64,000 nt of DNA from Chrysoperla carnea. Taxonomy: Eukaryota; Arthropoda; Insecta; Neuroptera; Chrysopidae. Both the position numbers and the translations under genes were made by a program. Where the stretch lies: assembly GCF_905475395.1 (NCBI RefSeq), contig NC_058337.1:100992368-101056367 (forward strand), in the 5' to 3' direction. Shown here in pieces: positions 23,701 through 31,100 of the stretch. The notes beneath the pieces are model-generated. The model saw only the letters and a list, made by a program, of their open reading frames with translations. It was not told the origin of the DNA and searched no databases. Numbering within the stretch: the stretch's first letter is position 1; the number at the start of each line of letters is the position of its first letter.

Positions 23701-25080
23701 TCCCACCACTCTTCTCAACTGTGCTCTAATGAAGGCGAGCACAGTCGAATGGCCTAGCTGTTGTTATTCACAGTTTGGCCTATCGCATGCTCTGCGCAAA
23801 GTCCCCGTAATCAAGTTGGGCTTCTCGTAGCCATTCCTTGATTCGGAACTGTTACATGAAAACTAAAACACAATAAATGAAAGATTATTAAATTTTAAAT
23901 TTGATTTGAAATGCTTAAAGTTTCCCCCGAAAATCTACAGATATTTAGCTATAAAGAATTGCTGTTGGTAACTCTTTACAAATGTTACATTTATTGACGA
24001 CAAAACGAGGTGTCGTCCAGAGTCTTCACCAGTCAAGGGTCTCCACTAATTCGAAAGAAATCAGAAAATTTTCTTATATTTTTGTCGATTCACTTTTTAA
24101 TCCGACAGAAACAAATAAATTTTTTTAACGAAAGATTCCATAGCGTGGCCGTTGGAAGTTTTATAGAATTTTTGTGCGAATAATTTTGCAAAATAGTGTC
24201 TAATCTACTTTTTGTAATGCAGAAATGGCACTGTGCATGTATTTATCGACGATGGTGAAGAATAGTAGTGGCGTTGAGAGATGTTTCTTGAAACTTAAGA
24301 TCATTAAAATATATTGCGAACATCAATAAGTCAAGAACGCTAAGAATAAACGTTTGAAATGTATCATGCATGTTGCCCAGCTTGAGTTTACGTATACAAA
24401 TAATATCTAAAAAGTTTAAGGGGTCTCATCCAAATGTTGGCTCCAGAGCCTTCGAATTTAAAAGCCGATCCTGTTTATAATACTTGTTTCATAAGGCTTT
24501 TTTAAGGATATAAAACTGGATCACATTTTATTTTCATAGCATATTCAAATTATTATCCAGCAAATTATTCAATAAACAAGCTTCTATTTAGGGAAAACAT
24601 TTACTAAAATTTTAAATACAATCATACCGTATGCATATCTCTTCGAAATATAATAAGTGTAATAAATCCAACGACGATAACTAACGGTGCCAAGCTAATA
24701 AAAGCCAAAATTTTACCAAATAAATCATCTGAAACATTAAAAATCATTTCCATTATTGATGCAGAATGTTTTTAATTAATCGTATAATCGACATACGTTT
24801 AATACATTTATCTTATTTATTTATATCTCGAAATATACATTCAAACATTAAACGTAAGTCGTAACTTTATATGTTAAACGTATGTTTTGAACTTGTGTCA
24901 AACAATGTATTTAATAGCAACAAAATTTTACGTAGATTTTGCCAGATAGAAATAATTACTGATTGTAAATTTACCTTTTGGATATTCGACAAGAGTTAAA
25001 GATATTGGAACCCATTCTATTCTGTTAACATTATTAAATAATTTTGAAGTTGAATCTGGAGGATCTTCATACGTTGCCAT
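20788..25080 (-). CDS. DOLPP1: Dolichyldiphosphatase 1 (four exons, complete)
   Basis: ER membrane phosphatase of the PAP2 superfamily that converts dolichyl pyrophosphate, released by oligosaccharyltransferase, to dolichyl phosphate for reuse in N-glycosylation. Exons on the minus strand: 25080-24975, 24728-24628, 23072-22894, 21145-20788; phases join and give 247 aa (human about 238). The phosphatase signature is intact: K87-x6-R94-P95, PSSH at 108-111, and SR at 161-162 with H168 (SRIYLQYHT). Hydrophobic segments include LAFISLAPLVIVVGFITLII (about 42-61), two around 112-160, and one in IVGIIFATIWFTLTCL. The C-terminal RDTTLIPNVLWFEYT is characteristic of this subfamily. Introns 2 and 3 hold transposon debris. 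The start Met is the first codon of exon 1 and is followed by the family N-terminus (WVPISLTLVEYP). Confidence 0.95.
21249..22323. mobile_element. Mariner-like element, decayed, in DOLPP1 intron 3
   Basis: Bounded by a 35-bp inverted repeat that looks perfect: 21249-21283 (TTTTATGTCGGTATGTAAAC ...) and 22289-22323. On the plus strand, broken frames resemble the helix-turn-helix part of an insect mariner/Tc transposase (RRLVSNFVEHGTVENP near 21885; SDELTEAVRENPKITLLRAQ near 21965), and the extreme C-terminus GGGHLFDVAFKN lies near 22190-22220. The DDE core is missing. A 450-bp MITE is inserted inside (21308-21770). Confidence 0.7.
21308..21770 (-). mobile_element. 450-bp MITE family M1, copy nested in the mariner-like element
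   Basis: Nearly the same sequence occurs inverted at 32587-33036. Termini TAGACCTT... and ...TGAAAAAGGTCTA form a short inverted repeat, and TA at the ends suggests Tc1/mariner mobilisation. Conserved internal blocks include GGCTCCACCGCACACGTGAT, TCAACTTTAAATGACGTCAA and TTCTCGGTCATATGGCTTCA. No ORF. Confidence 0.75.
23470..23870 (-). pseudogene. Jockey-like LINE 3' fragment (end of RT ORF)
   Basis: Minus-strand frame 23742-23539 reads MLAFIRAQLRRVVGLSKGHW, then LNYHLLFCNTGIYDD and CRVCMEIDETSIHIICSCSN. Insect Jockey/RNase H-bearing LINEs end this way (LTGHxxLNYHL...CRLC...ETxxHILCxC). The upstream segment (CGAATCAAGGAATGGCTACG) is shared with the plus-strand copy at 34590-34985. Truncated and interrupted; lies in DOLPP1 intron 2. 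Confidence 0.65.
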
Positions 25081-25488
25081 TTTTGTAAACTCACTGAACT
25101 CTATATTTACAGAGACTATATCAGTACACAGATGAATAAGTTAAATGCGTAAGTTTAAGGCGATTTTTATTTCTAACGGGCGATGATAGATGGTGTAACA
25201 AGCTAGTAAATTATAAATAAAAACAAAAAAATTTTTAGTTTATAGGTAGTACTGAAATATTTTAGTTGACAAATATTTTAAGTTTAAGTTTGTAACAACT
25301 GATAAATTTGTCATATTTGTTAATAACTGAAAACTTAATCAAGTATCATATATTAATTTTGAATTCTTTTGTAAACAATGACACATTAAATTTAATATAT
25401 TTGGTATAAAATTAAAATATGGCATTGTGTTCAATTCGTTCAAATTAATTTCGTTAAGTGTTGAGAACGATCACAAAACCAAAAACAA
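25081..25488. promoter_or_regulatory. Putative shared promoter, DOLPP1 (-) and 93-aa gene (+)
   Basis: The 408 bp between the two divergent start codons must contain both 5' ends if the 93-aa gene is real. No unambiguous TATA box was singled out in this AT-rich DNA. The call rests on the head-to-head arrangement only. Confidence 0.4.
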
Positions 25489-26747
25489 ATGTTATTTAGA
25501 ACAGACAAAAACATGTTATTTACACATTTCATTTCTAAGTAAGTTTTTAGATGATATATATCAATCAGTATCTTATCCAAATAATCTAGAAATAATAATT
25601 TTGAAGATGAGGTAGTCGTCGAGACGAAGATGAGGTTATTATAAGTCACCCACATTTGGCCTCATGCACATCATTACTAATTGTTAATCCACAGGACTTA
25701 GTAACGTTTTGTAGTAAAAAATTAAAGGTACTTGGAAACTATTATCTTTTTATTAAGAATAATGAAGGTTAATGAACAACGATATCGCAAATTTTTTTAA
25801 AAGCTGTTGGTTAGACTTTAAAATTAATAAATTTCATTCTTTTGATTCGAATCGAAATTTTTATATTCAGGCATCCAGGGCCGGATTTAAATTTCTGCCG
25901 CCCTGGGGCACTGAAGAAAATGCCGCCCTATGACTGAAATTTTATTTAATAGTTTTGATATCTTATTTTTTAAGAATTAGAATAGCTAATTAATTGCAGA
26001 AAAAAGAACCGGTTCATAACGAGCTGACCATCTGGTTGCAGATAAAGTTTTTAACGCAATTCTTTTTTCAGTATGAGACTGTAAGACTTCCCAGCGATGC
26101 GTCGATGCAGTAAAAAAGTTGTATAAAGTTTGTACTGTATGAAAGAATGAAATCCCTGATACATTATTCGCGTTATCATATGACTGACTTCGACAATCTG
26201 AGAGATCAAGATCAAAAAACTGAAGAACAGATAATACAGCAACTAGCAAATCTTCAGCTTTATGTCCAGAGTTCTCAATAAACATGAGGAAAAAAAATTT
26301 TTGTAATTCTTCAAAAAAAACTATATTAATTTATCAATTTCAGAAAAAAAAGTATCAAATTTTATTTGTTCAAACCTTTATGGAAATAAATTAATTTTAT
26401 TTTCATAGTTTTCACTTAAATTTAATATATTATAATATACAAAATTTTAATTTGATACATAATGCATAAATTATATTTCTTGAAAGATAAAATCTTTATT
26501 TAAAAGAATTAGTTAATTATATATTGTATAGAAAATGTTTTCTCACTTTCAAAATTTTTCCGCCCTAGAAAATTTGCCGCCCTGGGCACTAGCCCCGAAA
26601 GCCCCTAGTGTAAATCCAGCACTGCAGGCATCTAATAAATCTTTATTAAAAGTCATCCGTTCTAGAGATGAAAATTTTCTAGATCGTGAACTTGTTTACG
26701 AACAATATGCATTTGCTATTGAAGAAAGTAATAAGATTATAAATTAA
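25489..26747 (+). CDS. Unrecognised 93-aa protein, three exons, hAT in last intron
   Basis: Exon 1 is 25489-25538 (ATG; ends AA|GTAAGT, phase 2), exon 2 is 25616-25727 (after GGTAG; ends AAG|GTACTT, phase 0), exon 3 is 26628-26747 (after CTGCAG; stops TAA). The phases join exactly into 93 residues. Exon 2 encodes RRDEDEVIISHPHLASC and LLIVNPQDLVTFCSKKLK; exon 3 encodes SLLKVIRSRDENFLDRELVY and ends EESNKIIN. It looks like a soluble globular protein without a signal peptide or membrane segment. I do not recognise the family. The exon 1 and exon 2 boundaries are less certain, because the exon 2 acceptor has a poor pyrimidine tract. The gene is head-to-head with DOLPP1. A hAT element occupies the end of intron 2, and the exon 3 acceptor lies in its target duplication. 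Confidence 0.5.
25868..26632. mobile_element. Internally deleted hAT element with 8-bp TSD
   Basis: The element is 25876-26624 (749 bp), flanked by the perfect 8-bp direct repeat CAGGCATC at 25868-25875 and 26625-26632. Termini CAGGGCCGGATTTA and TAAATCCAGCACTG are imperfect inverted repeats of hAT type. The minus strand 26285-25986 keeps 99 codons of a ZMYM1-like transposase: EDLLVAVLSVLQFFDLDLSD, CRSQSYDNANNVSG, then a jump to FFHTVQTLYNFFTASTHRWE and TLSATRWSARYEP. The expected part between NNVSG and FFHTVQ is deleted, so it cannot make an active transposase. The intact TSD indicates a fairly young insertion. Confidence 0.85.
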
Positions 26748-28140
26748 ATAGCGAATATAATCTTTCCCTTAAAAATAGACTTCTATATTTTTAGTCTATT
26801 CTAGGTCTTTTAGAGTCTATTACTAACCTAAATTATTTTTTAGGTTTGATGTATCAACAATATCAACATGCCACTGGACGAACATCAATTTTTAAATATC
26901 ATCAAATCGACCTGGAATCGTTCTTCATTCTTCTCAATTTTAGTGAGGGTTTTAGTTACTCAACTTCAATGAGTGTTTTAGTGACTCAATTTAAGTGAAT
27001 GGTTTAGTGATCTTTAAGCCAGTTATTGTTATTATTGTTGTTATTGTATTTTATTTATATATTAAGGAAAGTATATCAAATTGATTTAAAAATTCTAGAT
27101 ATTTTCATATCAATATTTATTTTCTAGATATAAATTTTTCATATTTTTCGTTCTTTTTGTTTGTTTACGTTTCGTTTTCAATTATTTTCATTTTCTATAT
27201 GATTGAAGTTTTTTTACGTGGTTTTCCTCTAACTACGAGTAATCATTATTTCATTAATCTTGGTTGGTTTCTACTATTTTTTATTCGACCGCGAAGTATA
27301 TTCCATAATAAGGAAATAAATTATTTAAAAAGAGTCTCTTTGTTTCAATTTATTATTTTCAGGTTCATCACAAAATAAAATTATATTTAATTTTATATGT
27401 ATTTCTATACAAATTTGAGCAGAGACTGCAAAAGACTATATAATTTGAGTTATTGAAAATTGAACACACAAAATAAAAAATAAAAATTTAATATTTATGA
27501 AATATATATGAGCTTGTATGAAAATGGTACTCATCCTATTTGCATGACGGTAGAAAACAGAAACTTATAATATTTAATATTATAAGTTTTCTAATGTTAA
27601 TGCATATAGGATAAATACCATTTTTATGCAAGAAAATAAGCTTACTATTCAAGATAAGAACCTTATTATTTAAGATAATAATGAGATCTATTTTGACGAT
27701 TATACTAATTTAGTTTGCGCTGACACTCCGAGATGGCATTAGATGGCCTGCAAAAAAAATTAGCATTGACTTTCGCTTCTGTTTTACCGATATATATATT
27801 TATTTTATCAACTTCAAAAAATCAAAAGCGTGTTCAAATTTTATAAGTAGGAAAATCTACAATCAAACCCGATTTAAAATTTTTTAAAGACCTACAAAAA
27901 TTTTTAAGAAAAAAAAAAAATGCATATAAAATTTTTGAATTTTACCTGAAAACAAAAAAATTGGGTAAAAGAAAATGTGAATTTTTATAAAATTCAAAAT
28001 TTACATCTTTAGGTTTCATAATACAATTTTTTATTTATTTTTTTTAGCTTAACGTGTAAAAATACAAGGGAGATACAAAAATTAATTTAAATTTCGAACA
28101 ATAATTTTTGTAGTTTAATTTTTTTTTAAATATAACAATA
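26748..28140. other. Spacer between the 93-aa gene and QTRT1
   Basis: AT-rich, with no supported gene. It contains a hairpin MITE at about 27520-27627. The QTRT1 5' UTR and promoter should lie close to 28140. Confidence 0.4.
27520..27627. mobile_element. Hairpin MITE (about 108 bp)
   Basis: Left arm GGTACTCATCCTATTTGCAT ... GAAAACAGAAACTTATAATA is answered by TATTATAAGTTTTCT ... ATGCATATAGGATAAATACC. The arms are about 48 bp with few mismatches and almost no loop. The transcript would fold into a long hairpin. Confidence 0.6.
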
Positions 28141-31100
28141 ATGACCACGTGCGAATCCTCAAGTATAGAAAAATCACCCTTGACATTTAAAATTTTGGCG
28201 GAATGTAGCAAATCGAAAGCTCGAACAAGTATTATGACTTTACCCCATGGTGATGTCGAAACTCCTGTATTTATGCCAGTTGGAACACAGGTTTATGTTT
28301 TTTAATTGAATGTTTCTCAATGATGTGTTTTTTTAACCGCATTCTTTTTTTTTAGGGTACTTTAAAAGGACTTTTACCAGATCAATTAGAACAATTAAAT
28401 TGCCAAATTATGCTTTCAAATACATATCATTTAGGCACACGACCGGTAAGACAAAATCCTAATTGTTTAATTGATAATGTTCAAACATTTGCAATAAAAA
28501 TCGTTTTAACGGCATCAAACAAATCCGAAATTATTCGGACCGAACTATGTTTAATACATTTATTGAACTGTTCTTCAAGTTAATATACACAATAAAGTAA
28601 TACTAAATAACACAGGTCTGCGACCAAAAAACTGCATAGGATTTTTTTACATTTTCTCATAGATTTTGACCTCCCAAAAACACTAAAAATATTCAAAACA
28701 TTCTATCAAGTAGATTTTTATAGATATTAGTAACAACATAAACTAGTCTTTAAGTAGTACTATATAGTATTTTATAGTAATATTATATAAAACTAGTTTT
28801 AAAGTATTATTATTGCACCAAGTGCAATAAATTAAGTGAAAATAAATTAATTTCGCTTCCAATGGGGTATTCTGTGCATATGGAAAAAAACTAACTGTAA
28901 TAATTTGGCCATTATCCTGGAAAGAATCAAATATCAGGACCATTAATGGATGGTTTGTGGGGACTTCAAAATACTCACGATGCTTTTGGGTAAGCAAGCA
29001 GGCTATTCTAAATACCCTTGCTGCTTATGCTTATGGGATAATAGAGCCAGAGAACAGCATTGGACTAAAAGTGATTGACCACCCTGAGAAACTTTAAAAC
29101 CTGGAGAGGAAAATGTTATCAATACTACTTTGGTGCCGCCAGAAAAAAGTTTTGTTGCCACCTCTCCATATCAAACTGGGGTTGATGAAACAATTTGTAA
29201 AATCACTGCAAGAGGGTGAAGACTGTTTTAAATATTTATGTACAAAATTCCCGAAGCTGTCGGAAGCAAAGTTGAAAGAGGGAGTTTTTACTGGCCCCGA
29301 CATAAGATGGCTTTTAATCGACACCCTCTTTGTGGAAAGTTTGAATGAGAAGGAAAAAGAAGCTTGGATATCGTTCAAGGATGTAGTGCGAAATATTTCG
29401 GGAAATACTAAGGATCCTGACTACAAAACCATTGTTCAACTAGCAGCATACGAAGCTCAAGGCTGCAAGATAAGCCTGAAGGTCCATTTTTTACACTCCC
29501 ACATAGACTATTTTCCTGAAAATCTGGGAGCTTACAGTTAAAAATAGGGGGAGCGGTTTCACCAGGGTGTCCGCGATATCGAGAGACGGTACCAAGGAAG
29601 ATGGGATGTCACTATGTTTGCAGGCTACTGTATAATTTTTATTAAACGAGTGCTTTTACCAATTTTTTGTTTTTAAATTTGCAAAAAACCTTACGTGATT
29701 GAAAAAAATGGCCATCACTTCTGAAATCAGCGCATTCTAAAACATATAATTTAGTAAAAATATCTCATGCAGATGACAAAAAATTTTTTTTTGCAGGCCT
29801 GTGTAATCTATTAAAACCAGCTCAAGAGATTTAATTATAGATTTCAGTTTATAAAACAAAATTTTCATAGATCGGGTACTCCCACGGCATTTAGTCATCG
29901 TTATGCGCTATATATCCTTCAAAACTATTTTCTGTTTATTTTAAACAGATTTAAGATATTATAATTTGTTAAAGGGGACGGAAATAATCGAAAAAGCTGG
30001 TGGTTTACATAAATTTATGGGATGGAATCATAATTTACTAACTGATTCTGGTGGATTTCAAATGGTTTCATTGTTATCATTAGCGGAAATCACCGAAGAA
30101 GGAGTACGATTTCAATCACCGTATTCTAATGGCAAAGAAGTAATGCTTACACCTGAACATTCCATAGAAATACAAAATGTAATTGGTGCTGATATCATAA
30201 TGCAATTAGATGATGTTGTTGAGACAATAAAAACTGGTCCGCGTGTAGAAGAAGGAATGTATAGAACTAGTAGATGGTTAAAACGTTGTTTAAGCGCCCA
30301 TCAAAAGCCAGATACACAAAATATTTTTCCAATTGTTCAGGGTAATTTAAATCCCGATTTACGTAAAATAAGTGCATCGTTACATATACAATGTGATGTA
30401 CGAGGATTTGCTGTTGGAGGATTAAGGTATTTTAAAATTGTTGGAAAAATATCCCCTTATTATTTTATTTTCAAAAAACAGGCGTCTAATTTATTAAATA
30501 TTTCATTAACTCGAAATTGAAAAAACCCGTAGGCAATGAACTGCGGAAACTACGCGAATTTTCTTTTAAGCATATTGAAAAAATTTATGAGCCCCTGCGA
30601 TTTGAAACAAAGGTCGGGATTGGAAATTAGTGCCAATCATCTTTTACAATAACTAAATTCCTGCCTATATGTGTTACCTTTATCTGCAAGTGTAGCAGGA
30701 TTGATGAATATTTTATATTTACAGAAATTTTTGCAAAATACTTACATTTATTTAAAAAGAATCGCCCTAACAAGTTTCAGAAACAAAATAATTCGATTTT
30801 TTCAATCTTTACCAATTTTTATCTCGATAACTGGTAGCAGTAACTTGAATTGTAATTTAATATTTTTTTCAGTGGTGGAGAAAGTAAAAACGATTTTTGG
30901 CCCGTAGTTCATTTATGTACAGATATTTTACCAAAGGATAAACCCCGATATTTAATGGGAGTAGGATTTTCTGTGGATCTCGTCGTTTGTGTTGCATTAG
31001 GAATTGATATGTTTGATTGTGTATTTCCTACACGAACCGCTGTAAGTACAATGATTATGATCCCACATAGAACGAAATTTGTTCATAAATTAGAGCCGTT

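Follow-up and report, generated by a model that had tools for sequence, protein, structure and literature searches.

The locus considered here raises the question of whether a 749-bp transposon struck the intron/exon junction of a working gene and, by duplicating 8 bp of its target, copied the splice acceptor on which that gene would depend. A first-pass annotation had read it in this way: the final exon of a gene encoding 93 aa was taken to begin at a CAG|G inside the duplicated 8 bp, the copy distal to the element was taken to restore the reading frame, and it was suggested that the insertion may be tolerated for that reason. Our analysis of the window (the whole 64-kb stretch of Chrysoperla carnea DNA, with 29% G+C) and of related copies in the same genome leads to a different reading. 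The locus is very probably an ordinary nested insertion of a young hAT element within an older, decaying transposon, rather than a gene rescued by a duplicated splice site.

The inserted hAT element and its relatives

The insertion itself was described correctly in the first-pass annotation. The 749-bp element occupies positions 25876 to 26624 (no strand assigned) and lies between two exact copies of CAGGCATC on the + strand, one at 25868 to 25875 and the other at 26625 to 26632. These are the only two occurrences of the octamer on the + strand of the window, from which GATGCCTG is absent, and the left copy retains the original upstream sequence TTTTTATATT. The ends of the element, CAGGGCCGGATTTA and CAGTGCTGGATTTA, are alike at 12 of 14 positions and form imperfect inverted ends. 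Members of the hAT superfamily have short terminal inverted repeats starting with CAG, and the 749-bp element has such repeats. It is also related to hAT transposases through an antisense fragment, an open stretch of 114 codons at 25989 to 26330 on the minus strand, which represents a transposase remnant. Five of nine candidate relatives of this fragment were found at E ≤ 0.001, the best being a sequence from the butterfly Pararge aegeria with 62% identity, and three of these five carry PF14291, which we take to be a domain associated with hAT transposases. The fragment itself gave no match above the curated cut-off in Pfam.

A search of the insect's own genome (559 Mb in 337 contigs) with the 749-bp element returned at least 73 matches, with 40 of 459 candidates scored, and 40 copies were read. 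Exact 8-bp duplications flank 36 of these 40 copies, the window copy included, while L032 has an 8-bp duplication with one mismatch and no 8-bp duplication was found at L009, L026, and L033. Of the forms read, one of about 880 bp is the commoner, and the window copy lacks about 130 bp of it. Four copies of odd length (L027, L028, L036, and L038) were omitted from the alignment, and the 36 of 40 that were used differ from their majority consensus by 0.3 to 1.8%. Because the aligned copies are so close to the consensus, the family is young. The 749-bp element is a young non-autonomous hAT derivative, and the type proposed in the first-pass annotation is confirmed by the duplications, the inverted ends, and the PF14291-related fragment. 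In these features and in its CAG...CTG ends it resembles other non-autonomous hAT elements, from which it shows no notable difference, the 749-bp form simply occurring alongside the longer one.

A preference of this hAT family for splice acceptors was considered and rejected, since CAG lies within 2 of the 36 exact duplications and 1.5 would be expected from the flanking 8-mers. At one copy elsewhere, L004 (L004:1470-2290), the duplication TCTTTTAG stands behind a T-rich run and resembles a 3' splice site; inspection by eye of the joined flanks of this copy revealed no convincing coding stretch.

The older transposon at the target site

The true target of the hAT insertion is an older, dispersed repeat transposon. 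This copy of an inverted-repeat DNA transposon extends from 25110 to 27795 on the + strand, measures 1929 bp once the hAT element and one copy of the 8-bp duplication are subtracted, and is flanked by its own 7-bp target-site duplications, ATATTTA, at 25103 to 25109 on the left and at 27796 to 27802 on the right (both + strand). Copies of this element, whose termini read CAGAGACTATATCAG..., have the ends CAGAGACTATATCAGTAAACAG and, inverted, CAGAGAATATATCGGTAAAACAG; at the right end of the window's copy, the last six bases (TCTCTG) are missing.

Both boundaries are reproduced by other places in the genome. On the left, 19 other places start matching at 25101 to 25118, ten of them at 25108 to 25110 (40 scored of 70 candidates), and on the right, 35 of the 39 other scored places stop at 27793 to 27795 (40 scored of 63 candidates, the window's own among the 40). 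When the window was taken without the hAT insert, L049 could be aligned with it in a single alignment from 25109 to 27795, at 81%, and L050, L051, and L053 were aligned with the older element in pieces, at 76 to 93%. Eleven loci of the older element have paired ends. Exact 7-bp duplications are present at three of them (ACTGCAA at L049, GTTATGA at L050, and ATATCAG at L053), and no exact duplication was found at the other eight (L052, L054, L057, L062, L064, L068, L069, and L075).

The older element sits between two genes in opposite orientation. On the minus strand, the exons of a PAP2-domain protein (E 1.3e-17), presumably DOLPP1, start at 25080, and an open frame on the plus strand, which we take to be that of queuine tRNA-ribosyltransferase, starts at 28141. 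Only 29 bp separate the start codon of the PAP2 gene from the older element, which therefore probably lies in the 5' leader or promoter region of that gene.

The probable order of events is as follows. A DNA transposon of about 1.9 kb with inverted repeats, perhaps of the P superfamily, inserted 29 bp from the PAP2-phosphatase start codon, and this copy then underwent decay. The hAT element, short and internally deleted and presumably mobilised in trans by a transposase made elsewhere, entered the older copy at a later time, and an 8-bp staggered cut followed by repair left the two copies of CAGGCATC. The CAG|G inside these 8 bp is a coincidence, and no use of the duplicated site in splicing is needed; functional splicing is probably absent from the locus.

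The 93-codon frame and the duplicated CAG

The exon bounds used here are those of one model that fits the numbers of the first-pass annotation, which gave no full exon list. Hypothetical exon 1 (25489 to 25538, + strand) lies within the older transposon and is judged not to be a gene; it is followed on the + strand by hypothetical exon 2 (25616 to 25727, 112 nt) and hypothetical exon 3 (26628 to 26747, 39 codons and a stop). The reconstructed model thus joins 50 + 112 + 120 nt into 93 codons plus a stop and has canonical sites, with donors GTAAGT (25539) and GTACTT (25728), a first acceptor TAG (25613 to 25615), and a second acceptor CAG at either 25868 to 25870 or 26625 to 26627. Both readings made in the first pass could be reproduced from the sequence: use of the distal CAG yields the frame of 93 aa, while the proximal CAG leads into the transposon, where a stop follows after 20 more residues encoded by the duplication and the element.

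At 16 other loci of the older element (L042 to L048 are the same places as L049 to L055 and were counted once), the junction is uninterrupted. The empty site, which the first-pass annotation had proposed to look for in other individuals or related species, was thus seen, but at other copies of the target repeat and not in other individuals. Of these 16 empty-site loci, 10 have kept the AG that precedes exon 3 and six have lost it (L055, L059, L060, L061, L066, and L067).

Exon 2, read in the phase of the model, is interrupted by a stop in each of the five other copies in which it is readable (L049, L050, L051, L053, and L062), so that among the six copies read it is open solely in the window. 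Its length also varies: the 112 nt of the window compare with 141 nt in L050 and with 140 nt in both L051 and L062. In L049, L051, and L062, the exon 2 region reads RRDEDEVI(K/E)SHPHLPFTVADAE(V/L)RPHAHHY, followed by a stop.

The changes among the alleles of exon 3 fit no selection on a protein. In 12 of the 17 aligned rows (L056, L061, L062, L066, and L067 were omitted, being broken or deleted in this part), 51 variant alleles were counted, of which 10 are synonymous, 38 are replacements, and 3 are stops, compared to 11.5, 35.9, and 3.6 expected without selection. Change rates at codon positions 1, 2, and 3 were 0.050, 0.081, and 0.035 in the same 12 rows, with no excess at third positions, and within group B they were about equal (0.040, 0.032, and 0.040). 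Furthermore, a 7-bp difference between two groups of older-element copies shifts the frame. Neither the exon 3 alleles nor the exon 2 stops thus give a sign of purifying selection or of a conserved frame across the 93-aa model. Pfam searches with the exon 2/3 peptide, a 67-aa trial peptide, and the 93-aa protein yielded no match above the curated cut-off, and a comparison of the exon 2/3 peptide with PDB sequences yielded no relative of solved structure.

The reading that comes closest to the nested insertion, although unlikely, is that the older transposon carries or once carried a spliced gene of its own, in which case the hAT element would have hit a real intron/exon junction and copied a real acceptor that is useless to the host. 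Because the donor AAAG|GT, the acceptor CAG, and TATATTCAG are kept in several older-element copies, the element may indeed once have been spliced. Besides the window, three copies (L049, L050, and L051) have exon 3 open, in its own phase, as far as its stop; in L053 it is not open, and the L062 sequence breaks off. Exon 3 also changes less than its surroundings: over 12 rows its rate is 0.055, that of the supposed intron 0.094, and that of the sequence following the stop 0.093; without the poorly aligned L052, L058, and L059, the rates are 0.059 for exon 3, 0.069 for the 3' part of the intron, and 0.086 after the stop (9 rows). In addition, the exon 2/3 peptide has 14 genome matches at E ≤ 10, the window's own included and most of them to the exon 3 part, and the 45-aa predicted protein P0001 is 68% identical to the exon 3 peptide over 44 residues. 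However, a gene under selection is not what the codons of exon 3 suggest, lacking as they do both a third-position and a synonymous excess, and the loss of the acceptor AG in 6 of 16 copies, the 7-bp frame difference, and the stops in exon 2 likewise argue against it, with the reservation that the true upstream exon may differ from that of the model.

Which of the two CAGs would serve as the acceptor can be considered independently of whether either one is used. The 20 bases before the proximal CAG contain 11 pyrimidines and those before the distal CAG contain 10 (T, 9 versus 5); being alike on the two sides, pyrimidine content alone does not decide between them. The AG dinucleotides differ more. 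Before the proximal CAG, which retains the original intron end, the nearest AG starts at -58 and is the only one within 60 bases, whereas before the distal CAG four AGs start within 37 bases, at -10, -21, -28, and -37. Of the AGs beyond the branch point, the first that is suitable is generally favoured in splicing. By this rule, and given the scarcity of AGs before it, the proximal CAG would more probably serve as the acceptor than the distal one, provided that either is used. Its use would end the frame early, the reverse of what the first-pass annotation expected.

This weighs on the reading from which we started, namely, that a host gene of 93 aa is functional here, that the hAT insertion copied its final acceptor, and that the distal copy restores the frame, possibly giving two forms of transcript. 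An open frame with canonical donors and acceptors and an exact duplication speak for it. However, the entire region is a dispersed repeat, exon 2 is open in the window copy only, exon 3 is without protein-level constraint, the nearest of the four AGs before the distal CAG would add 8 bases and break the frame, and neither the domain nor the structure searches found a relative. From the sequence, the 93-aa frame is unlikely to be a living host gene, and the full reading, with its duplicated and rescued acceptor, is highly improbable. The claims that a gene was the target, that the CAG serves as an acceptor, and that transcripts of two forms arise thus find no support, and the same is true of the proposal that the duplication explains the insertion's tolerance: because the target is an older repeat with a stopped exon 2 and an unconstrained exon 3, the insertion needs no special explanation. 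We give even less credence to a variant in which the older copy would be transcribed from the PAP2-side promoter region and would contain a real intron with two competing acceptors, yielding transposon-tailed and 93-aa products. Finally, assemblers can misplace repeats and both elements are repeats, but each insertion has its own exact target-site duplication and gene sequence continues on both sides, so that an assembly artefact at this locus is hardly credible.

That target-site duplications can supply splice sites is already a known idea, for which the present locus is no evidence. Introners obtain splice sites from target-site duplications, according to passages of PMC9860276. The likeness to our locus, as far as those passages go, is that the duplication of a DNA transposon contains a splice-like motif and that splicing could in principle remove the element, whereas Introners create introns in genes (PMC9860276) and the present locus lies in a repeat. 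A second parallel, described in parts of PMC12277486, is the Outlaw element in AUX/IAA16 of Bassia scoparia, an insertion at the start of an exon that changes the acceptor used. As at our locus, the element sits where an intron meets an exon and has a target-site duplication; unlike our locus, it involves a retrotransposon, a real gene, and sequenced transcripts, and the exon's first bases give way to the final 19 bases of the inserted sequence (PMC12277486). In the portions of four sources covering duplicated acceptors at transposon insertions (PMC9860276, PMC12277486, PMC2613891, and PMC3014980), no hAT duplication that copies an acceptor is described.

The significance of the nested insertion is small beyond annotation. 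What looks like a gene with a duplicated splice site can arise when a recent transposon lies within an older one, and short multi-exon models need to be checked against repeat copies before they are trusted. If 25727 were found joined to 26628 in transcripts, the locus would become a clear-cut example from nature of a splice acceptor preserved by a target-site duplication.

Family of the older transposon

The older transposon perhaps belongs to the P superfamily. We propose this because its 7-bp duplication fits, as in Galileo: of the 7- or 8-bp target-site duplications that mark the superfamily, exact 7-bp ones are found in the window and at L049, L050, and L053. At 8 of the 11 loci with paired ends no exact duplication was found, which counts against the assignment. 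Members such as Galileo and 1360 have 7-bp target-site duplications and terminal inverted repeats, according to sections of PMC4168063, and the older element shares both. It differs from Galileo, whose inverted ends are long (PMC4168063), in having short ones, and no transposase or THAP domain was confirmed among the older-element copies read.

In L054 (L054:4204-4581) and L057, both of them copies with similar ends, an open stretch, CVVCNATEENVRTFHFPRNENRQ, resembles by eye the start of a THAP domain; these stretches gave no Pfam match above the cut-off and no PDB match. A homologue search with a 78-aa open stretch of L049 returned no candidate.

Two further features of the family were observed. 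At L053:4257-6905, a copy of the older element with ATATCAG as its 7-bp duplication is inserted in an end of a second member of the family. Near the right end of the window's copy, an inverted repeat of about 60 bp lies at 27513 to 27632, and this segment, which matches itself in reverse, is present in many of the copies read.
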